From positions 1 to 20,587 of the IMG/VR virus record IMGVR_UViG_3300010885_013397: a DNA stretch of 20,587 nucleotides. One strand, 5' to 3'. Positions 3,961 to 19,572 of this stretch are shown piece after piece. This DNA is from a virus. Positions within the stretch are counted from its first letter, which is position 1. Each line of letters begins with the position of its first letter. The position numbers and the translations under genes are program-made. Below the pieces are notes generated by a model that worked only from the letters and a program-made list of their open reading frames with translations, was not told the DNA's origin and made no database searches.

Positions 3961-6546
3961 TTATTTAGCGTATGAGTTTGTACTACCTTTATCTACAACT
4001 GATGTTATTTTAGAAGTAACTTTTTGTCCATCCATATTAACACCAATTTTACCAGATGCTAAATCAGCTCTCAACCCTTTTATTTCAGTTATCAGTTCAT
4101 CCATACCAGCTCCACCACCTGCTGCTCCACCACCCATACCACCACTTAATAAATCGCCGCCACCAACTGCTAAGAACATACCTACTGCTATCATACCAGG
4201 TATCGCCATTAATGATGATACTGCGAATGCTGCTAATGATAGTGAAAGTGCAGCAAAACCACCAGCCATTGCTAATAATCCAGCTGCATTATCCATATTC
4301 ATTAATGGTAATAGGGTTTGCATCATAAGTGTAATACTACTAATCATTGTTTGAATACCCGCGGCAATTGCTGTAACTACATTTACAATTACATCACCAA
4401 TAGTTTGAACCAATGGTGCGGTTAAGCTCAATGCATATGCAAATGGAATTAATGCTAGTCCAAATGCTGCTATTAAAGCAACACCTAAGAATGGTATTCC
4501 AGTTGCTGCAGCCGCTCCTATTGCCTCTAAACCAATAGATAATCCTACCAATCCAGCCCCAGCTGCCTCACCACCTAAAGCAATTCCTGCCAATCCTACA
4601 ATACCAACAGTCATAATACCAAATGCTAATCCAGCTGCTGCTAATACACCAGTTCCAAATAAAGCATTGGTGTTACCCATAGCTTGTAAGCCAACTCCTA
4701 TAAATTCTAATCCAAGCCCTGCTTCAGTACCAAGTGCAGCAATTGCCATTAGAGATGGAATACCAACAAGCATTGTTACTAATCCCAATGCAGTTGGCAT
4801 CAAATTAAGTGCTCCAAATAATACTTTTGTATTTCCCATTTCTTTCAATCCTTCTGCCAAACTTTTTAAACCACCTCCTGATTTTGCACCAGCTGCTCCG
4901 GCAGTATCTCCAGCGGCGCCGGCTTCAGTAGCTTTTTCGGATACAGCTGCTATTGGACTTTTACCTCCTCCAAATAATTTTCCAACAATAGGTATTTTTG
5001 AAGCCATACCTTTTATATCAAATCCCATTTGTGAAAACGAACCACCTAATTGTGCGCCTGCCATCACCATACCACCTAAAGCCTCTAATGATGTTCCTAA
5101 ATATTTATTTAATCCAGCATTAATTGTTTCACCAACTAAACTGAATGTTGCATTTATCTTTCCACCCATTGTAGCTGCTTGCTCCTGATTTGTTACCATC
5201 TTTTGCAATTCCTCTACCGATGTTCCCATCAATTCAGCTGTTTTTTTCTTTTGGAAATAATCCATTTTATTAAATGCATCAACTCCACCCAATGCTCTCA
5301 ATGTTTCTTGAGTTGCTCCTGCTAAATCACCCTGATATGCTAATGCTCTTGCTTTATCTAAATTAATATCTTTACCAAGCATTGCACCTAATTCCATTTC
5401 ATTATTAATAGAACTTTCAAAATCTAAAAGATTATCAGCCAATCCGGTCATAGTTTTTAAACTAACTCCCATCTTAGCGGCTGCTCCAGCAGCTTGAATC
5501 ATATTCTTACCACCCTCTTTACCAAATAATGCAAATGCTTCAGTATTATCAGCCAAATCAGCCATAAGAGCGCCAGGTATTAAACCATTTTGAGCTGCAA
5601 ACTCTTGAGATGCTTTTGTTAAGTTTAATGCTGTTTCTTGGCTATTACCATTTAATCTTGCAAATGAACCAATTAATCCAGCTGCTTCAACCCCACTAAT
5701 ACCCATATTAACGGATATAAGAGATGTTGATGCTTGTAATTCACCAGATACATTATTTATTCCACCAAATTGTGATGCTAATTCTTTTGCATTTGCTACT
5801 GCGTTATCATCAAAGAAAGCAAGTGCAGTTGTTCCAAATTCAGCAATACCACCCAATTCACCTCTAACCTCACCCATCTTACCAAGGAACTTACCAGCCC
5901 CAATAAGACTCATACCAAGTAAACCAGCTGGTCCACTTGTTAGTATAGATGCAGTATCTAATATACCACCAATTGTTTTCTTTATTCCATTATATGCTTC
6001 TAATTGAGCTTCCAATTGTTCCTTTTGACCTTCTGTCATAGAGGAATAATCTCTTGCTAACTGATTTTGATTTTTTAAATTATCAACTATTTCTTGAGAT
6101 ATATTTTGTTGTCTTGCAAATTTAGTAATTTCAGAATCAAATTGGTCCTGTAATATTTGTCTTTCTAATACTTGGTCAGATGTTAATTCAGCTATTTTTT
6201 TATTAACTTCAGCTAAAGTATTTCCTCTTTGAACTGCTAGGTCTGATAAATTTCCAGCTTTTAGCATCATATCAATTCTAGCCATATCAGCCTTTTTTAA
6301 AGGGTCATACATAGATGCCATCGATTTCATATCGTTTTGAGAATCTACATAAGCTTGTCTTTGGCTTTTTTGTATTTTATCATTTATTTGCTGAAGCTCT
6401 CTACCTAATCGTATTCTTTCACGATTTAATTCGTTTTCTCTTTGCGCATTTTGTATCCCCTCCTCATTATAACGATTTATTTGCTGAGTAAGTCTACCTA
6501 ATGCCCCTAATGTGGCTAATCTTTCATTATTTAAGTCTTCTGCCAC
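3961..6546 (-). CDS. Tail tape measure protein
   Basis: An 861-aa protein starting MAEDLNNERLATLGALGRL. Residues 1-190 are strongly helical and charged, with coiled-coil character (RQ, NE, EL runs). A Gly/Ala hydrophobic stretch follows near 190-225. A long series of Ala/Gly/Leu/Ile hydrophobic segments spans about 580-800, as in tape measures that cross the host membrane during DNA entry. A Gly-rich linker (GGGMGGGAAGGG type) leads to a C-terminal piece with DELITEIKGLRADL and VNMDGQKVTSKI, a tail-end motif common in tape measures. It lies after tube and assembly-chaperone genes and before baseplate genes, the canonical place. Scaled against T4 (590 aa for roughly 95 nm), the tail would be about 130-140 nm; this is an estimate. 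Confidence 0.9.
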   Translation of the reverse strand: MAEDLNNERLATLGALGRLTQQINRYNEEGIQNAQRENELNRERIRLGRELQQINDKIQKSQRQAYVDSQNDMKSMASMYDPLKKADMARIDMMLKAGNLSDLAVQRGNTLAEVNKKIAELTSDQVLERQILQDQFDSEITKFARQQNISQEIVDNLKNQNQLARDYSSMTEGQKEQLEAQLEAYNGIKKTIGGILDTASILTSGPAGLLGMSLIGAGKFLGKMGEVRGELGGIAEFGTTALAFFDDNAVANAKELASQFGGINNVSGELQASTSLISVNMGISGVEAAGLIGSFARLNGNSQETALNLTKASQEFAAQNGLIPGALMADLADNTEAFALFGKEGGKNMIQAAGAAAKMGVSLKTMTGLADNLLDFESSINNEMELGAMLGKDINLDKARALAYQGDLAGATQETLRALGGVDAFNKMDYFQKKKTAELMGTSVEELQKMVTNQEQAATMGGKINATFSLVGETINAGLNKYLGTSLEALGGMVMAGAQLGGSFSQMGFDIKGMASKIPIVGKLFGGGKSPIAAVSEKATEAGAAGDTAGAAGAKSGGGLKSLAEGLKEMGNTKVLFGALNLMPTALGLVTMLVGIPSLMAIAALGTEAGLGLEFIGVGLQAMGNTNALFGTGVLAAAGLAFGIMTVGIVGLAGIALGGEAAGAGLVGLSIGLEAIGAAAATGIPFLGVALIAAFGLALIPFAYALSLTAPLVQTIGDVIVNVVTAIAAGIQTMISSITLMMQTLLPLMNMDNAAGLLAMAGGFAALSLSLAAFAVSSLMAIPGMIAVGMFLAVGGGDLLSGGMGGGAAGGGAGMDELITEIKGLRADLASGKIGVNMDGQKVTSKITSVVDKGSTNSYAK

Positions 6547-6551
6547 TTATT

Positions 6552-6776
6552 TTATAATTTTGCTTTTGGAATTTGAGAAAGTATTTTATCTAATTCATGC
6601 TTTTGTTTTTGTATGTATTCCATTTTTTCAATAGCTTCTTGGCTCATCCTAGCTTTTCTAGCTTTAACAAGAACTCTATCAACGGCATTATTTTTTAATC
6701 CGTCAAAAAAAGCATCACTAAATTGTTTAGCTGCTCCAAATAATCCTTCTTGTATTGGTTGTTTTTCTTTTGACAT
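6552..6776 (-). CDS. Small conserved-looking helical protein upstream of tape measure (unknown)
   Basis: A 74-aa protein starting MSKEKQPIQEGLFGAAKQFS. It is lysine-rich and predicted almost fully helical, with an amphipathic segment EGLFGAAKQFSDAFFDGLKNN and a charged C-terminal helix. There is no cysteine or signal peptide. The start is supported by an AAAGGAA element about 7-13 bases upstream of ATG at 6774-6776, one of the few Shine-Dalgarno-like sites here. It is the first gene after the terminator at 6812-6842 and ends 5 bases before the tape-measure ATG, so it is probably co-transcribed with it. I do not recognise the family. A tape-measure partner or minor tail protein is possible from position only. 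Confidence 0.75.
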   Translation of the reverse strand: MSKEKQPIQEGLFGAAKQFSDAFFDGLKNNAVDRVLVKARKARMSQEAIEKMEYIQKQKHELDKILSQIPKAKL

Positions 6777-6811: not shown

Positions 6812-6842
6812 AAAAAAGTGAGGATTATCGTATCCTCACTTT
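6812..6842 (-). terminator. Intrinsic terminator overlapping the end of the frameshift ORF
   Basis: A perfect 11-bp stem (6815-6825 with 6832-6842; coding strand AAAGTGAGGAT and its complement) closes a 6-nt loop and is followed on the minus strand by T6. The stop codon of the upstream frameshift ORF (6825-6827) lies at the junction of stem and loop, so the last codons of that ORF form the terminator stem. It separates the tube/chaperone transcript from the tape-measure transcript. Confidence 0.85.
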
Positions 6843-7046
6843 AGAACTTTTTGCTTTTGAATTAGCCTTTTTAACTTCTTCAGCTTCTTTTTTCTTTAAT
6901 TCTATTAATTTGTTAAAATAGAATCTCCTAAGATAAATCGGCATATGGTAAACATCTGACCAAGTAAATCCATTACTAAATTGAACCATCTCCCAAATTT
7001 GAGAGTGTAATGTGATTTTATAATCAGGTGGTAGGGTAAAAAAAGC
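6825..7046 (-). CDS. Out-of-frame C-terminal extension of the gp26-like protein (probable programmed frameshift product)
   Basis: In the +1 frame relative to the upstream 267-aa gene, an open segment runs from just after a TAG (7047-7049) to TAA at 6825-6827, about 73 codons. It encodes TLPPDYKITLHSQIWEMVQF, then NGFTWSDVYHMPIYLRRFYF and a Lys/Glu-rich helical tail ending KVRIR. The pattern W-x-x-V-x-F-x-x-GF-x-W-x-x-V-x-x-MP-x-x-LR-x-F-Y resembles second-frame domains of tail assembly chaperones and C-terminal parts of gp26-type proteins. No ATG, GTG or TTG exists in frame before the domain. The first ATG (6987-6989) is inside the conserved block and has its purine run directly abutting the start. 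Translation by frameshift from the upstream gene is therefore the best explanation. A fused product would be about 333 aa. A sequencing error in the T run is the main alternative. Confidence 0.75.
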   Translation of the reverse strand, partial: AFFTLPPDYKITLHSQIWEMVQFSNGFTWSDVYHMPIYLRRFYFNKLIELKKKEAEEVKKANSKAKSSKVRIR

Positions 7047-7049
7047 CTA
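7024..7049 (-). other. Putative +1 (or -2) ribosomal frameshift site at a T7 run
   Basis: Zero-frame codons are GGC TTT TTT TAC CCT ACC ACC TGA; the seven T lie at 7038-7044. The +1 frame is opened by TAG at 7047-7049 and the zero frame closes with TGA at 7024-7026, so the shift must occur in about 21 nt. A tRNA-Phe on the second TTT can re-pair perfectly one base forward (or two bases back) inside the run, giving ...GFF-TLPPDYK. This is seen directly; the mechanism is inferred. Confidence 0.65.
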
Positions 7050-7827
7050 TCCCAAACGGGATATCTAACGCCTCCGTTTCGCCTGTTAATTCTGATACAA
7101 AATTAAATTTTAAATCTAAATCTGGAGAAATTTCTTTTACATATGCTCTAAATGCTTTTGTATCCTTTGCTAAGAAAGAATTCATAATCCATTTATTAAT
7201 AAACCCAGTATCAGTATTACCATCAACCGAGGTAATCATATATTTCATACGAGTTGTAACATCAGTAGAACCACCAGCACCTTTTGCTATTTTTTCCATA
7301 GCTTGAGTATCTTTAGTAATATTTTGTTCATCACCATGAGTTAATAACTTAAATTCAATAGATTTACCATTTGAAGGTAATTTAAATTGATATCTATTTT
7401 TTGAATTTAAAACTGATTCATCAATATCTTTAGTTTGTACTTTAGATAAATCAATAATAACCTCTTGCTTTTCTAAGGTGAATGGGTCAGTAATTTCTAC
7501 TTTATAATCAGCACCATATCCTAAAATACGAGTTGCCAATAAAATAGCGTTTTTATCACCAATTACAATATCATTTGTATTTAATCCCGGTTCAACAACA
7601 ACTGATTCAAATAATCTATCCAACACTAATCCTTTTTTAATAAGATTTTGTGATGCTAAGATATCTTCCTCTCTAGCTGTCATATGTTTAATTTCAATAG
7701 TACCCTTTCTTAATGGGTGTCCTTCAGGATAAACTAATCCTTGAGAAGGTAATTCAATTGTTTCCGTTGGGAAATCAAATTCTCTTTTTTGTGCAACCGG
7801 AGCTGCCGCAATATTCACTTCTGCCAT
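7024..7827 (-). CDS. T4 gp26-like baseplate/tail assembly protein (PF12322 type)
   Basis: A 267-aa protein starting MAEVNIAAAPVAQKREFDFP. Residues about 22-110 show the family pattern: ELPSQGLVYP, then IEIKHMTAREEDIL, DRLFESVV, DKNAILLATRILGYGADYKV. This matches the T4_baseplate (gp26) family, in which LPS-x-G-x-x-Y and a D-x-x-x-L-L-x-x-R-x-x-x-Y-G block are conserved. T4 gp26 (208 aa) is a hub assembly factor. Here the gene sits between tube and tape measure, the position of tail assembly chaperones. It is preceded by its own leader after a terminator and ends in a T7 run with an overlapping +1 ORF, as in G/GT-type chaperone pairs. It probably coats or loads the tape measure during tail assembly; that role is inferred from position and the two-frame arrangement. 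Confidence 0.8.
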   Translation of the reverse strand: MAEVNIAAAPVAQKREFDFPTETIELPSQGLVYPEGHPLRKGTIEIKHMTAREEDILASQNLIKKGLVLDRLFESVVVEPGLNTNDIVIGDKNAILLATRILGYGADYKVEITDPFTLEKQEVIIDLSKVQTKDIDESVLNSKNRYQFKLPSNGKSIEFKLLTHGDEQNITKDTQAMEKIAKGAGGSTDVTTRMKYMITSVDGNTDTGFINKWIMNSFLAKDTKAFRAYVKEISPDLDLKFNFVSELTGETEALDIPFGIGFFYPTT

Positions 7828-7890: not shown

Positions 7891-7923
7891 AAAAAAGGGG
7901 ATACTTTTGATATCCCCTTTTTT
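7891..7923 (-). terminator. Strong intrinsic terminator after the tail tube gene
   Basis: A perfect 13-bp stem, 7891-7903 with 7911-7923 (core GGGGATA / TATCCCC flanked by A6/T6), and a 7-nt loop. On the minus strand it ends in a T run, so it terminates the sheath-tube transcript. A-tracts on both sides mean it could work in both directions. It starts 13 bases after the tube stop codon. Confidence 0.9.
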
Positions 7924-7936
7924 TGTTATTTTTAGA

Positions 7937-8425
7937 TTAGAATTCTAAGATTGCGTAATCATAAGCTATTGATAATTCAATTGTTGCTGGTTCGTTTGAA
8001 TCAAATGCAACATCTCCGAAGTTTGCACTTAAGATAAATGCTCCTTTGATTTTCCATTGTTCAATTTTATCACCAACTGGTCCTAACATATAGAAATCCA
8101 AGTCTTTTTTGTAGAAATCAGCGTATCCATCTCTACCAGTAATTGATTCATGTGATAATCTCACCCACTCCATTACCTTTTGTGCTCCAGAAGGAACAAT
8201 TGGGTCATAAAGAGTGATTGTGATATCTTGCCACTCACCTTTACCTTTTAATTTTCTTTTAACGTTGATGTGGTCTAACACAACAGGCTCAAAAGTAATT
8301 GTTGGTCTTTGTGCTGCTTTAACTAAGTATGAATCAATACCATCGATTTGCATTACAAATCTATTTTTCATCTTAGGTTCGAAGTTCGTATAGAACATCT
8401 TATCAAACTCTAATATTTCTGCCAT
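7937..8425 (-). CDS. Tail tube protein (T4 gp19-like)
   Basis: A 162-aa protein starting MAEILEFDKMFYTNFEPKMK; T4 gp19 is 163 aa. The sequence follows the tail-tube family: an N-terminal FEPKMKNRFVMQIDGIDSYLVKA strand segment, a central KGEWQDITITLYDP, then MEWVR and a C-terminal FGDVAFDSNEPATIELSIAYDYA, a form typical of gp19-type tube subunits. It polymerises as hexameric rings inside the sheath. The ATG at 8423-8425 is preceded by AAGGAATAAAA, a modest Shine-Dalgarno. It follows the sheath gene by 51 bases with no terminator between them and is followed by a strong terminator, consistent with a high-level sheath-tube transcript. Confidence 0.93.
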   Translation of the reverse strand: MAEILEFDKMFYTNFEPKMKNRFVMQIDGIDSYLVKAAQRPTITFEPVVLDHINVKRKLKGKGEWQDITITLYDPIVPSGAQKVMEWVRLSHESITGRDGYADFYKKDLDFYMLGPVGDKIEQWKIKGAFILSANFGDVAFDSNEPATIELSIAYDYAILEF

Positions 8426-12285: not shown

Positions 12286-15200
12286 TTATTTGTTTTCTAA
12301 ATCTTCTACTCTATGTAATAAATATTCAATTTGTGCTTTTGTCATATTAATTTCATTTCTTAATTCTTTAACCGATTGTACAAGTACAGGTACTAACGAT
12401 TCCATAGAAAGTGTTAATAATCCACTCTTTTCATCAGTTCTTACCAATGTAGGGAATACTTCTCTAACGTTTTGAGCAGTAAAGCCCATTTTCATTATAG
12501 TATCTTCTACAAATTCTGGGTCTACTGAGTGCATTTTGTATGTGTAGTAAATAGGTGTTAAAGTATCTACTTTATCAAGCACATCGGTAATTACACCATG
12601 TATATTTTTTACACTAGCATCAGAGTATCCAGACCAACCATAATAATATGGATATAAAACCACACCACCATACGAACCACCACCACATAACATATAAATT
12701 GAGTTATATCCATCAGTTTGCATTACATTATTGTATCCTCCAGATGAACGATAGTAAATACCAAATCCACTTTGGAAATCAATATTACCATCTGAACCAT
12801 AATTTAAATTAAGGAATCTACGGAATCTAGAACCACCTCTCTCTACGTTAAATGCAATAAATCCATAAGTTGTAGAATCGAAAGAAGCACAGTTATTAGG
12901 TCTACTATAATAGAATGTCCATCCAAATTGCTGATTGTAAATACCACCATTACCACTTTCAAACATTACGTTGTTGTGATATCCAGAAGGGTCATTAAAG
13001 TTATGTCCACCATATCCACTACGATAGTTACCAAAAGATTCCCAAGGGGTATATGATGATTGGAAGTTACTTCTAAAGTGCCCACCATATGATTGTTGGT
13101 ATAAACCACCACCGCCTTGGTTTCTAAACCAACCATTTGCATAAACCTCTTGGAATGTAGGACCTGAATCCGTTCTTACGTTTTGATTCATATAGTTGGA
13201 CATCCAACCCATATATGCGTTCCAATAGTTACCATCTTCTGCAAAATAGTGTCTATCGTTACCATCAGTTCTTCTAAAAATAAAGTAACCACCACTTCTT
13301 TGTTGGAAATATAAATGGGCACTATGCCATTGAATCTTATTATATTCTCCTGTCCATCCACCCATATCACTATATAACATATAACCTGGTCTGATGTAAT
13401 GGTTATTTGTATATACTGCATTAAGACTTGAAGTGCCATTAGGGTCGGAATAATATCCAGTATCATTTCTATCGTAGTAGATATATGCTCTTACATCATC
13501 TGCATAAGTAACACGATACAATTCCATATGGGCGTTACCATATTCAATACGAATCTGCCAGTTACCAGAGTTATTTAATAGACCAAATCCACTACCATCC
13601 CAATATAGATAACCTCTTAAATCAGATTCATAGTTGTTATACATTACAACACCACCATATCCATATCCACCACCGGCTGCTTTCCAATATCCATTATTGG
13701 TGTACCAGTGCATTCCTCTACTTTGATTGTAAAGTCCGTGTCCGTTTGTGTTATTTCTAAACCATCCGTTTACATATAAATCATAGAAAGTAGGATTCGC
13801 ATCAGTTCTTACGTTTTGATTCATATAGTTGGACATCCAACCCATATATCTATTCCAATAGTTTCCATCTCTAGCAAATTGGTGAGATTCTAAACCATCA
13901 CTACCATATCTCATAATATGATAACCATTATTAATTACCTGATAATATAAGTGAGAGCTATGCCATTGAATTTTATTATACTCACCAGTCCATCCACCGG
14001 TATCAGAATACAACATATAACCAGGATTAATGTAAGTATTGTTTACTGATAATGAGTTTAATCTAGTATCACCGTCACCACTTCCAAAATAATATCCACT
14101 ATTATTTCTATCGTAGTAAATTGTTGCGTATATTGCGTTTTCAACATACACAGGTCCACCAGCATACCAGTTAAGATATGTAGTGTATCCGTTTCTTGGG
14201 TCTAAGTGTAAGTTACCATTCGTTGTTACAACAGATGCCCAGCTATCTACTCTACCATTTGAACCAACATAAAGATAAGCGCCCCATGTTGGGTTAGGTC
14301 CATGTAATGTACCACCTCTAAATCTTCCAGCGTTACCACTATCATTAGGGTCTATATAATATCCACTATCATTTCTATCATAAAAAATATTTGAATAAAT
14401 AGCATCTACATATAAAGTACCTCCAGCATTATATGCTGATGTAAACACTCTATAACCATTCAAATACATATCATATACGTTGAAGTAGAAATTACTTCTA
14501 TCAGTATAAATGTGAGCGTGTCCAGAGTTAGCAGGTCCAAATTCAATATATCCATATGGAGTATTGTGTCTATAACCCCAACTACCTCCAGCTAAATAGT
14601 AATTACCATCACCATAATCCATTGATGATAGACGAGAACGTCCATTTGGATTTGCAAAGTATGCTGTATTTTCTTGGTCATAGAATATTGGTGCTCTCAT
14701 ATCACCATATGATATTGCTACACCATTTGTTGAGTTGATTGAGAATCTTAAATTATCACCACCAGTTGATGCATTTCTTTGAGTATTACTTTCACCAAAG
14801 AAACGGAAAATACCATGTGCATTATTTGTACCAAATGCAATACCATCGTAATACCAAATTTTGTGGTAGTTATCACCCTCAGCTCTTACTAATAAAGAAC
14901 CATCATTCAATACCATACCAACTGCACCACCTCTACTATTTGCACTCATTCCTGCTGTAATAGGACCTGATACATAAAGTCTACCATCATGGTCTAATCT
15001 CATTTTGGCAGTGCTCCAATCCGTACTTGCTACTCTTGAGGTGTACCAATAATGTGAGTGGTTTTCAGATGCAGTATTACCAATACTTCTCCAATGACCC
15101 GAATAATATCTTATATCATTACCATAACTACGAATCATACCATCGTATGCATCAGCAATTCCAAGCTCTAAAGAAGGATAATCACCAGTTCCTCCAAATT

Positions 15201-18200
15201 TTAAACCAACAGTTCCGTTTGCACCACCACCACTTTGTCCGTTTTGAATTCCTAAATACCATATACGGGAGTTACTATTAGGGTCTACAAAATAGCTGGT
15301 TGGGTCAGATGTATCTCTGAATATCGTACCATATACTTCACTTGATGCGTACATTGTACCACCAGTAAAAATACTATTGTTTGTTGCAAGACCAGGATAT
15401 GAGTTTGGTGCTATTTGTGCTGCTGTTGTAGAACCAGGGTCACCATAACTACCATCCCCTATAGTCCAACCAGGTGATTGATAGTTATCAGTCATTGCTA
15501 CATAAAGTGTACCACTATAATTTACATAAACTTGTAAATAATGAGTATCGTATGTACCAGTTCTTCTAATTCTAATTTCATTAAACACACCACCACCACT
15601 ATACCAAGACTTACCAAGCATTGTTATATCAGCAACTTGTCCAAATGATATACCAGCATTAAACTTCATTGAACCATGCAATCCACTTTCATAATCCCAA
15701 ACATGGAATGTAGCCATTTGTCTACTAGCACCATATGCAATAGTGTACCATCTACCAGCAGTAACACTAAATGATGCAGTATCAATTACCGACCAACCTT
15801 TAACACTCAATCCATTTAAATTTGATGTTGATGCTGGGTCTAAATAATATCCAGTATCATTTGAATCTTTAAATATTGTTGCTCTAAATTCAGAAGATGC
15901 CTCACTAATACCATTATTGTATGTTCTGAATTTCCAACTAAATGTACTGCCATCCCAAGTTCCTAACTGAACACCATTACCAGATGGATGTGATGAAATT
16001 GAAGTATATGCTGCGGTAACACCAATAGCATATCTATAAGATGAACCCATAGATAAGAATGGGAATGTTTCAGAACCATTTCCTAATTGTAATGCATATA
16101 AATTAGATGTACCACTATTAATATAATAAGTTGTACCACCTACATAAATTGTACCATCTGCTCTAAAGTTATATGGAGTATAAGTACCACTACTAAATTG
16201 ATTAGCTTGGTTTAATCTTAAATAAGAATCGGTTGTATCAAGTGCTTGCTTACTATTACCATAAAGATAGTTTGTAAAATATAATGAACTATTAAATGTA
16301 CCTTGATTAAATGTTACGTTATCAGATGTTCTAACATTTTGGTTCATTAAATAAACTTCAGTTGCACCTTGACCTGTATCAATTGTACCACTCAATGTTA
16401 TATTACCAGCACTTACCGAAAGGTTTCCACCAGTTACACTAACACCATTTGTAGCAGTAATTGCTGCGTATGTTACGTTATCAGTTGTTCTAACATACTG
16501 ATTCATATTGTATGCATATGGTGAATTGGCACTATCTAAAATAATGTACCAAGTTCCCCAAGATGTACCACTACCATATCTTCTCCATAAGTTACCATTA
16601 TCAGTATATGCTATATTGTATGCCCCACCACCACTAAAGTCAGTTGATGAACCATATTTTCTCCAATACATTACACCATTGTAAGTACCACCATCACTTA
16701 ATCCGTTTGTAGAGTTTGTTTTAAAATCAAATCTAACTACGTTATTAAATGATTGAGGAGTATCGTTTACAGCTCTAGTATCATTTGAATAAATATATGT
16801 TGTATATGTTGATGTTGTTGCTGAGTTTACGTTAAAGTTTGATGGATTCCATATATACATTGTTACACCATCATTAGTTCCCCAAACATAAGTTGGTTGC
16901 CCAGATTGTGCAGTATAGTTAAAATCTATGTTAGTTCCATCTGAACGTCTTGGATAAGCTCTAATATTCCATTGCCCACCATTATTTGTTACAACAGCGT
17001 AACCACCTACGTTTAATGCGTTTAGATTAGATGTACCACCATTTACATAATAAGTTGTACCACCACCTAAATAAACAGTAGTGTTTACATATAAGTTACC
17101 AGCTACAGAAGTATCTGCATCATGTACCCATTTACTATTTGATTCACTCCAATAAAATTGTCTTGTTGCGGATGCATTTCTTTTTACTTCAAAACCACTA
17201 TCAATTACAACAGGTGCACCCGAACCAGTTGCAAATGCTAATAATGTAATAATATTATCATTAGCCTGAACAGTTGTTGTGTTCAAATATGTCGTTGTAC
17301 CACTAACAGTTATATTACCTGTAATTATTGCATTACCGGCTACTGTCAATGTACTACCATCAAATCTTAAATTACTTTCAACGGTTGCGTTTGGTGCAGT
17401 TCCATCTAATGTGATTACACCATTATCAGTTGTACCAGTTAATGATAATAACCCCGATGTACCACCACTACCTGATGAACCACCAGAGCCACTTGTACCT
17501 CTTGTTCCCGAAGAACCACCACTACCTGCTGTGCCGGCTGTACCACCACTACCAGATGTACCCGATGAGCCGGCTGTACCCGATGTACCACCACTACCAG
17601 CTGAACCGCTTGTACCCGCACTACCAGCTGAGCCGCTTGTTCCAGAAGTTCCCGATGAGCCACCACTACCACTAGTACCGGTTGAACCCGATGTACCTGC
17701 TGAGCCGCTTGTACCAGCTGAACCTGATGTACCTGCTGAGCCGCTTGTGCCGGCTGAACCTGATGTACCTGCTGAGCCGCTTGTACCACCTGAGCCGCTT
17801 GTACCAGTTGAACCCGATGTTCCTGCTGAGCCGCTTGTGCCAGTTGTTCCCGAAGAACCTGCTGAGCCGCTTGTGCCAGCCGAACCAGCAGAACCTGTTG
17901 TACCAGCCGAGCCAGCACTTCCGCTTGTTCCACTACTTCCACCACTTCCAGAAGTTCCCGATGTGCCACCACTTCCAGAAGTTCCTGATGAACCAGCAGA
18001 ACCTGCCGAGCCACCACTACCAGTTGAACCTGATGTACCAGCAGAACCTGCCGAGCCAGTTGAACCAGCGCTTCCGCTTGAACCTGCTGACCCCGTTGAG
18101 CCTGATGAACCACCACTTCCAGTTGTACCAGCAGTGCCCGCACTTCCACTACTTCCCGATGTGCCGCTTGTGCCGGATGAACCTCCACTTCCAGATGAAC

Positions 18201-19572
18201 CGCTTGTGCCGGCCGAACCTCCCGTACCACCTGCTCCAGACAAACCACTCGAACCACCACTACCAGTTGAGCCTGAAGTTCCCGATGAGCCACTTGTACC
18301 GCTACTTCCGCTTGTACCAGCTGACCCACCAGCTCCACTTATACCACCAGAGCCTGATGTACCGCCACTTCCCGATGAGCCATTTGTTCCCGATGTACCT
18401 GCCGAGCCTCCCGTACCGCTTGAGCCGGAAGTTCCCGATGTGCCAGTTGAACCCGAAGACCCCGTAGTTCCCGATGTACCTGCCGAGCCAGTTGAACCCG
18501 ATGAACCCGTTGTACCAGATGAACCTGAGGTGCCAGAAGAACCTGACGTTCCTCCACTACCACTACTTCCACTTGTGCCATCAGTTCCCGATGTACCTCC
18601 ACTACCACTTGTGCCACCAGAACCGCTTGTTCCTCCACTACCACTTGTACCACCACTTCCAGATGAGCCGCTTGAGCCGGATGAACCCGATGTACCTGAT
18701 GTACCAGCTGAGCCAGTTGAACCAGAACTTCCCGATGTACCGCTTGAGCCACTACTTCCCGATGTACCGCTTGAGCCACCACTACCGCTTGTACCCGATG
18801 TGCCCCCAGAGCCCGATGTACCACCACTTCCAGAAGACCCAGATGAGCCGCTTGAGCCCGTAGAACCACTTGAACCACTTGAGCCAGTTGTACCTGATGT
18901 ACCAGAAGTTCCTGATGTTGCTGCTGCGGTTTTTGTACCTATCTTACCAGTTGTAGTATTAATTACTAATACCTCATTTGTTGTTAAATCTGCTTTTAAT
19001 CCATCTATAAATAATGAACCTGTTAATCCTACACTACCAGTAAATTCTTGCTTATCAGTTTGTGCATCACCAAATTTATTACTTCCAGTTGCGTAAATTA
19101 TAGATGATGAAATATATGTTGTAAATAATTCAGTAGTTGTTATTTTTCCAGCTACACTTATATCTCCTTTAAAAATACCACTACCAGTTACTACTAAAAA
19201 ATCATTTACAGTAACTCCACTATTAATTCTTAATCCTTGATTTGGAGAAATTTGTGCAATTGCTGAACCTGATTTTAATTTATCTAAGTCACCAATTGAA
19301 GCTGCACTAATATTAAATAATCCACTACCATCACCCTGAAATAAAGATGCTGTTATAGAACCACTTATTTTTGTATTTCCTTTTATTTGTAACGTTGTTC
19401 CTAATGTACTTACACCAATTGCATTTGTTTGAACTGCTGATGCTGTGAAATTTCCCACAACACTAACCGATTCAGATGATGCATTTAAAATAGGAGAACC
19501 ACTTACAAAAAGTGAAACACTATTAATACTATTCTGATTTAAACCACTAGAAACCTTATCATTAAACTGCAT
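12286..19572 (-). CDS. Giant tail fibre/adhesin with Gly-X-Y stalk and C-terminal S74 intramolecular chaperone
   Basis: A 2428-aa protein starting [20 protein letters not shown]. Residues 1-219 are beta-rich with [14 protein letters not shown] and [16 protein letters not shown] motifs seen in environmental phage fibres. Residues 221-707 are strict glycine-every-third triplets (X,Y mostly Ser, Thr, Ala, Gly; no Pro). Residues about 708-2316 form a Tyr/Asn/Gly-rich shaft with repeated YDRNDTGYY-x-DPN-x-TS-x-LN elements (six clear copies plus two earlier variants) and MNQNVRT-D modules. Residues 2317-2428 match the peptidase S74 / endosialidase chaperone: SDASVKNI start, [29 protein letters not shown], then a C-terminal coiled coil. 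That family trimerises the fibre and self-cleaves before the conserved Ser (Ser2317 here). The protein is therefore a trimeric receptor-binding fibre. Leader AAAGATAAACGGA lacks a strong Shine-Dalgarno. Codon and base composition in the stalk is much more GC-rich than in neighbours. Confidence 0.93.
13121..13404 (-). repeat. Internal fibre module, copy B (downstream)
   Basis: Encodes [20 protein letters not shown] through [15 protein letters not shown] to GWFRN (about residues 2057-2151). It is near-identical to copy A 633-636 bp upstream in the gene, including a stretch of more than 40 exactly matching bases starting near 13172. Confidence 0.85.
13754..14040 (-). repeat. Internal fibre module, copy A (upstream)
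   Basis: Encodes [20 protein letters not shown] through [15 protein letters not shown] to GWFRN (about residues 1845-1940). The flanking YDRN-x-x-GYY elements (near 13458 and 14097) are repeated at about the same spacing, so the duplicated unit is about 633-639 bp. Confidence 0.85.
17452..18912 (-). repeat. Gly-X-Y coding repeat tract (9-bp triplet periodicity)
   Basis: From the first Gly codon (18910-18912) to the last (17452-17454), 162 triplets in phase. Coding-strand units are GGN plus ACN/TCN/AGY/GCN. The tract is distinctly G-rich on the coding strand and GC-rich against the AT-rich window. Rare non-small residues (one each of Asp, Asn, Ile, Leu, Arg) are scattered, so it is diversified rather than a fresh expansion. 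Confidence 0.95.
17696..17821 (-). repeat. Higher-order 36/18-bp tandem repeat inside the stalk
   Basis: Units beginning with plus-strand CCTGCTGAGCCGCTTGT start at 17696, 17732, 17768 and 17822, i.e. spacings of 36, 36 and 54 bp (36+18). These are much closer to each other than to the rest of the tract, which suggests recent unequal recombination or slippage, always in multiples of 9 bp. Confidence 0.85.

Follow-up and report, generated by a model that had tools for sequence, protein, structure and literature searches.

A gp26-like gene in the virus record IMGVR_UViG_3300010885_013397 is followed, in another reading frame, by an open reading frame without an evident start of its own, which raises the question of whether the two are read as one protein and, if so, by what means and in which direction the frame is changed. 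We studied the whole record of 20,587 bases, here called the window, in which all features of the locus lie on the minus strand. The gp26-like gene (7027..7827) encodes 267 aa and stops at a TGA (7024-7026). The second frame, ORF2 (6828..7046), is the +1 frame, open for 73 codons from 7046 to 6828 and closed by a stop at 6827-6825; a TAG (7047-7049) blocks it upstream. The two frames share 23 nt (7046-7024), not the 21 nt counted in a preliminary description of the locus, whose positions for the TGA, the TAG and a run of seven T (T7; 7038-7044) were all verified. As had also been described there, ORF2 has no ATG, GTG or TTG ahead of its conserved block, the first being an ATG inside that block, and translation of the +1 fusion bore out a 333-aa product with the junction ...GFF-TLPPDYK..., in which the ~70 aa 3' of the slip site would form a T-like (gp51 C-terminal) domain.

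The genes of this region run in the order sheath, tube, gp26-like gene, 74-aa ORF and large ORF. Immediately upstream of the gp26-like gene lies the tail tube (gp19) gene (7940..8425; PF06841, E 2.7e-7; PHROG 4542 tail tube, E 4e-29). The second gene downstream is the large ORF (3961..6546, 861 aa), for which no Pfam match and only weak PHROG matches of unknown function were found; judged by its size and position, it probably encodes the tape measure protein, and its counterpart is annotated as such in Flavobacterium phage immuto and Bacillus phage SP-15, where the gene order is the same. In the window, as in these two phages, the gp26-like gene occupies the position between tail tube and tape measure genes that is typical of tail assembly chaperones (TACs). 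The intervening 74-aa ORF (6552-6776) weakly matches PHROG 23193 (E 3e-4; no assigned function), and Microcystis phage Mel-JY01 carries a 216-nt ORF at this place. Elsewhere in the window, a 2,428-aa ORF (12286-19572) with a long GSS/GTSG-type repeat region is probably a tail-fibre gene, overlain by long antisense ORFs that resemble artefacts of the repeats, and a small protein (1263-1553) matches the PHROG 7145 baseplate wedge subunit (E 1e-13).

The gp26-like protein matched PF12322 (T4_baseplate, gp26) above the family cut-off, over residues 40-138 only (E 7e-6; 26.3 bits versus 24.5), and the PHROG 150 baseplate hub (E 1e-9). Its AlphaFold model (mean pLDDT 88.5) matched predicted gp26 and hub proteins in BFVD, including that of SP-15; among PDB folds there was no significant match, the best TAC being HK97 2ob9 with a weak score (E 2.9, probability 0.21). 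The downstream domain, modelled separately, was predicted to form three helices (pLDDT 85), for which Foldseek gave no significant structural match, and a PDB sequence search returned nothing relevant. Four members of the T-domain profile matched PHROG 634 (baseplate hub assembly catalyst; best E 5e-4), and 11 of 48 downstream-domain members matched Pfam DUF6760 (best E 3e-5); a DUF6760 search of six whole bacterial genomes gave two weak matches. Judged from its sequence, the product of the locus is the TAC of a contractile-tailed phage, with the gp26-like protein as its short, G-like form. This agrees with the role that the preliminary description had assigned to a gp26/PF12322-type protein, whereas ORF2, taken there for a second chaperone family, supplies the C-terminal domain, T-like or gp51-like, of this one TAC family.

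Relatives were collected by searching viral contigs with the 267-aa protein (66 loci), by a family profile search (at least 600 matching stretches; 80 loci kept) and from genome contigs (15 loci). They included the isolates Mel-JY01, immuto, SP-15, Streptococcus phage GXN1, Listeria phage LIS04 and Rhodothermus phage RM378. The gp26-like protein was kept at all loci analyzed. A profile of the downstream domain placed it in the +1 frame at 156 of the 162 loci and at no locus in frame 0, so that the two parts never formed one in-frame ORF; four loci were assigned to the -1 frame or were ambiguous (XacN1, RAS14, LR756511 and RM378), and two were unassigned. For RM378, the -1 assignment is probably wrong because the open frame there is +1. 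In the jumbo-phage relatives XacN1 (L075), RAS14 (L076) and LR756511 (L077), the domain lies in the -1 frame, indicating that shift direction varies inside the wider family. Downstream of the slip site, pN/pS in the +1 frame was 0.28 (class 1) and 0.21 (class 2), compared with at least 1.0 in the other two frames; the +1 frame is under purifying selection. The conserved C-terminal domain can thus be reached only through a frame change near the 3' end, as is characteristic of TACs.

These data confirm the two-frame arrangement as real and far beyond chance. Whether relatives consist of one ORF or of two frames had been posed as a check, and they carried either an identical T run or another sequence competent for slipping, with no in-frame case. 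The same comparison disposes of the reading that a mistake in sequencing or assembling the T run broke one intact gene: homopolymers are error-prone, but more than 150 loci, isolate genomes among them, share the frame relation and none is in frame, so that the relatives exclude such an error and leave it virtually no probability. Isolate records do not annotate the frame change and give small separate ORFs or nothing instead. In Mel-JY01, immuto and SP-15, such small ORFs are annotated behind the gene, which would suit translation of ORF2 alone, from an internal ATG 37 nt past the zero-frame stop or from a start near the stop codon, and in the window a GGGAG directly abuts this ATG. However, the resulting Shine-Dalgarno (SD) spacing is zero, initiation at the ATG would cut into the first helix of the domain and many relatives lack the ATG (among them L016, L019, L020 and L037-L040). 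Neither could a GGAGG farther upstream (7071-7075) start the +1 frame, as the TAG at 7047-7049 lies between. Homologues with their own ORF2 start and ribosome-binding site had been named as evidence that would count against a frameshift; no conserved start codon or ribosome-binding site for ORF2 was found among the relatives. We therefore rejected separate translation, which we regard as very improbable.

The slip site (7038..7044) reads TTT TTT TAC in the zero frame. We surveyed such sites at 159 loci representing 81 lineages (<80% identity). Heptamers in the +1 group were TTT TTT T (64 lineages), TTC TTT T (six) and TTT TTT C (four), with TTC TTT C, TTT CTT T, TTT CTA T and TTT TTT A found in a single lineage each; TTTTTTA occurred in the -1 frame in two cases among the 81 lineages. 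Where two Phe codons were present, the second was TTT in 79 of 79 lineages as opposed to 54.1 expected from the codon use of the same genes (log10 P -14.7), a value that assumes independent lineages, which these are not fully, and that was obtained with a search pattern itself requiring TTT at this codon; another pattern was needed by two lineages only (immuto and LR756508), and LR756511 fell outside the pattern. TTT occupies the slip codon despite being rarely used in SP-15 (TTT:TTC 2:7), LIS04 (0:4) and GXN1 (0:5), and the TTT signal is clearest in TTC-preferring genes (SP-15, LIS04, GXN1, XacN1 and RAS14). Common to nearly all +1 cases is YTT followed by Y, which is the requirement for +1 re-pairing. 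A-site codons at these sites are sense codons (TAC, TGG and CGC).

Re-pairing of the P-site codon one base forward is possible in all +1 lineages but LIS04, where TTT TTT A makes it imperfect at the second TTT. A ribosomal -2 frameshift at the T run, the type of shift reported for phage Mu, would place one extra Phe at the junction, and T7 does permit P-site re-pairing two bases back. Unlike at a Mu-type site, such re-pairing is not available in every member: lineages with TTC TTT T, TTC TTT C and TTT CTA T cannot re-pair at -2 and yet keep the +1 frame. In immuto, TTT CTT T resembles the site in prfB, and a -2 slip may be feasible there. A hairpin against the E site has also been proposed to hinder backward movement (PMC6321510), and overall we consider a -2 shift quite unlikely. 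TTTTTGA stands in place of CTTTGA in 21 prfB genes (PMC12421855), an earlier example of +1 slipping on TTT T. The re-pairing patterns argue for +1 as the direction, much better supported than -2; of the "+1/-2" shift originally suggested, the programmed frame change has stood and its -2 option has lost most of its ground.

Two elements missed in the preliminary description precede the slip site. An internal SD-like GGAGG (7071..7075) lies 26 nt 5' of it, and between the two, 3 nt before the slip site, is a 6-bp stem-loop, TATCCC-GTTT-GGGATA (7048..7063; minimum free energy -7.6 kcal/mol). In 57 of 78 representatives, GGAGG was separated from the slip site by 26, 23 or 17 nt; counting any gap, 59 of 78 had it. 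At its wobble positions, anti-SD pairing exceeded the synonymous expectation (mean z ~ -1.7), with values of ~0 further upstream. Folding was compared with synonymous recoding using each gene's own codon use. The last 30 nt before the slip site had a mean z of -1.37, whereas nine control windows taken from these genes gave -0.12 to 0.27; for the last 24 nt, mean z was -2.18 (p 4e-6; 15 of 16 clusters at 55% identity negative) and for the next window upstream (offset 24) -0.85 (p 0.024), with no excess folding in windows from 72 nt upstream onward, p values that are indicative, the control windows being the safer guide, since energy, shuffle and window choices were set after the first hairpins had been seen. 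Mean hairpin z was -1.12 in the largest cluster, which holds the window's sequence, and the signal was not found in GXN1, immuto, L037 and LIS04. Sequence downstream of the slip site also folds better than synonymous shuffles, weakly (z -0.5 to -1.2) and without position specificity; a downstream pseudoknot or stem was rejected as main stimulator on these grounds, although the 5' elements may not be the sole stimulators.

A hairpin followed by a T run could also act on transcription. In stem-loop-mediated transcriptional slippage, RNA polymerase would skip one T in some transcripts, and standard translation of these would yield the fusion. In Roseiflexus IS630, as summarized in PMC5009743 citing Penno 2015, a 6-bp hairpin with a 4-nt loop, directly 5' of the T-rich slip tract as in our case, is adjacent to U5C5 and leads to transcripts minus one base; that signal acts on RNA polymerase, and the summary describes no SD element. 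Loss of one base has the same shift sense as +1 reading, the hairpin and T7 of the window are terminator-like and T7 is present in 64 of 81 lineages (+1 group). Against slippage, lineages whose longest T run is 3-4 (TTCTTTT, TTCTTTC, TTTCTTT and TTTCTAT) retain the +1 arrangement, the hairpin and GAGG; for T runs of at most 4, mean hairpin z was -1.99 (n = 9) and GAGG was present in seven of nine. The conserved GGAGG would have no role in slippage and points to the ribosome, and the sister family considered below has a ribosomal -1 signal of the classical type. Among the alternatives to a ribosomal shift, transcriptional slippage is the strongest; we judge it improbable, and a mixture may occur in T7 lineages. 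The terminator-like score of the hairpin and T7 in the window also invited a reading as a terminator, which was rejected because L055, L059, L060, L062, L074 and L105 retain the hairpin but have no long T tract. Separately, strong bidirectional terminator-like hairpins occur at 7891-7923, between the tube and TAC genes, and at 6815-6842 (intrinsic type, minus strand), overlapping the end of ORF2, so that the TAC gene is flanked by two putative terminators; the region has five terminator-like sites versus 0.7 expected.

A search with gp26 of cyanophage Sf-FS3 revealed 80 loci of a sister family in which this domain lies at -1 and the slip sequence is always T TTT TTC. Adding IC12, phiAS5, Paride, XacN1 and RAS14 gave a -1 set of 85 loci from 16 lineages, with T TTT TTC or TTTTTTT as slip sequences. 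In most of them, anti-SD pairing peaks ~10 nt before the slip site, and the family showed no pronounced 5' hairpin (z between -0.07 and -0.57, with no more than 19% of the 16 lineages below -1.64). The -1 TACs of T4-like cyanophages and others (Sf-FS3, phiAS5 and IC12) thus share with the +1 family a homologous protein, the same site and a poly-T slip but differ in the T TTT TTC heptamer, the nearer SD and the missing hairpin. Poly-T -1 slip sites in T4-like TAC genes are mentioned in PMC12846349, which cites Vladimirov et al. 2022.

Profiles of the +1 and -1 fusions aligned over 281 columns across the junction (pairwise E 4e-28), and the -1 profile aligned with T4 gp51 (pairwise E 9e-11). On its own, the +1 profile matched T4 gp26 weakly (E 4e-4), and its direct comparison with T4 gp51 alone failed (probability 6%), so that the -1 family is needed as a bridge; through it, homology to a gp51-type long TAC extends over the N- and C-terminal parts. 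Like T4 gp26 and gp51, the fusion has the PF12322 N-terminal part and, via the -1 family, aligns with gp51 over both domains. In contrast, T4 encodes a short gp26 and an in-frame long gp51 as separate genes on opposite strands, with no frameshift, and the locus in the window is not a single in-frame gene of gp51 type. By this chain of similarity, T4 gp26 and gp51 are the short and long forms in phages without a shift. The T4 gp26 sequence (L078, NC_000866) closes with EFFELL; its gene has TTC TTT immediately ahead of the stop codon, at the position of the relatives' slip site. The short-long equivalence of gp26 and gp51 has been reported before and is not new: in place of a frameshift, some T4-like phages have two genes, one short and one long and fused (Vladimirov et al. 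2022, as cited in PMC10885494), and this identification of T4-like TAC genes by Vladimirov, Gautam and Davidson, to the extent conveyed there, overtakes the novelty initially claimed for the gp26-TAC link.

From the observed arrangement, its conservation, the +1 coding and the homology to the -1 family and thereby to gp51, we infer that the frame is changed on the ribosome, in the +1 direction, with the GGAGG and the hairpin as stimulators; that two TAC forms arise in this way by a +1 slip of tRNA-Phe is, in our assessment, likely. The majority of ribosomes would end at the TGA (7024-7026) and release the 267-aa gp26-like short form, the equivalent of lambda G. In a minority, tRNA-Phe on the second TTT of TTT TTT TAC would slip +1 and re-pair on the overlapping TTT, and these ribosomes would make the 333-aa fusion with its three-helix C-terminal domain, the putative equivalent of lambda T or of the C-terminal part of T4 gp51. 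On the model of lambda, the role of the short form would be to coat the tape measure, and that of the long form to recruit tube subunits. The GGAGG and hairpin would stimulate the shift by setting duplex RNA against the E site. In E. coli 70S ribosomes, an upstream SD duplex or hairpin by the E site increases +1 shifting at CUUUGA and attenuates -1 (PMC6321510), an effect that fits the hairpin contrast between the +1 and -1 families. Looping-out of the hairpin would also shorten the distance from GGAGG to the slip site. The split ribosome-binding site of T4 gene 25 offers a parallel: a hairpin between its SD and AUG cuts the spacing from 27 to 11 nt (PMC3014915), and a similar spacing trick may serve frameshifting here. 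That site likewise has an SD at the end of gene 26 followed by a distance-shortening hairpin but serves AUG initiation and is restricted to close T-even phages, so it is probably an analogue.

Among other known systems, prfB (RF2) shares the YTT Y slip (CTTT, with TTTT in 21 genomes) and an upstream SD-like element (PMC12421855) but its A site holds a stop codon and its SD is 3 nt away, whereas a sense codon, an SD 17-26 nt away and an intervening hairpin are found here. TACs of the lambda G/GT, P2 and HK97 type resemble the locus in lying between tube and tape measure genes and in producing a short and a long form through a frameshift near the 3' end; they differ in their -1 shift, and this comparison showed no sequence similarity and no significant fold match. 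A TAC of the archaeal virus HSTV-2 is described as 'very likely +1' (PMC5009743). The shift direction, initially called unusual, is indeed favored as +1, with HSTV-2 as one stated precedent among TACs. Our literature search, with most subscription papers outside its scope, found no description of the +1 family or of an SD-hairpin-slip arrangement. With about equal weight for and against, we propose that the family carries a widespread natural +1 signal of three parts, an internal Shine-Dalgarno, a 5' hairpin at the E site and UUU UUU U, for making the long TAC, and that within the family +1 rather than -1 shifting accompanies the presence of a hairpin between the SD and the slip site, evolution having switched the direction without loss of homology in the fusion product.

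A large T4-related myophage family, including isolates whose annotations miss the shift, thus appears to use a +1 frame change, and recognizing it supplies the missing C-terminal domain to the annotations of many phages. Across homologous natural signals (+1, -1 and the two genes of T4), direction, SD spacing and 5' hairpin co-vary. This set would make the choice between +1 and -1 by an upstream duplex testable with native sequences.
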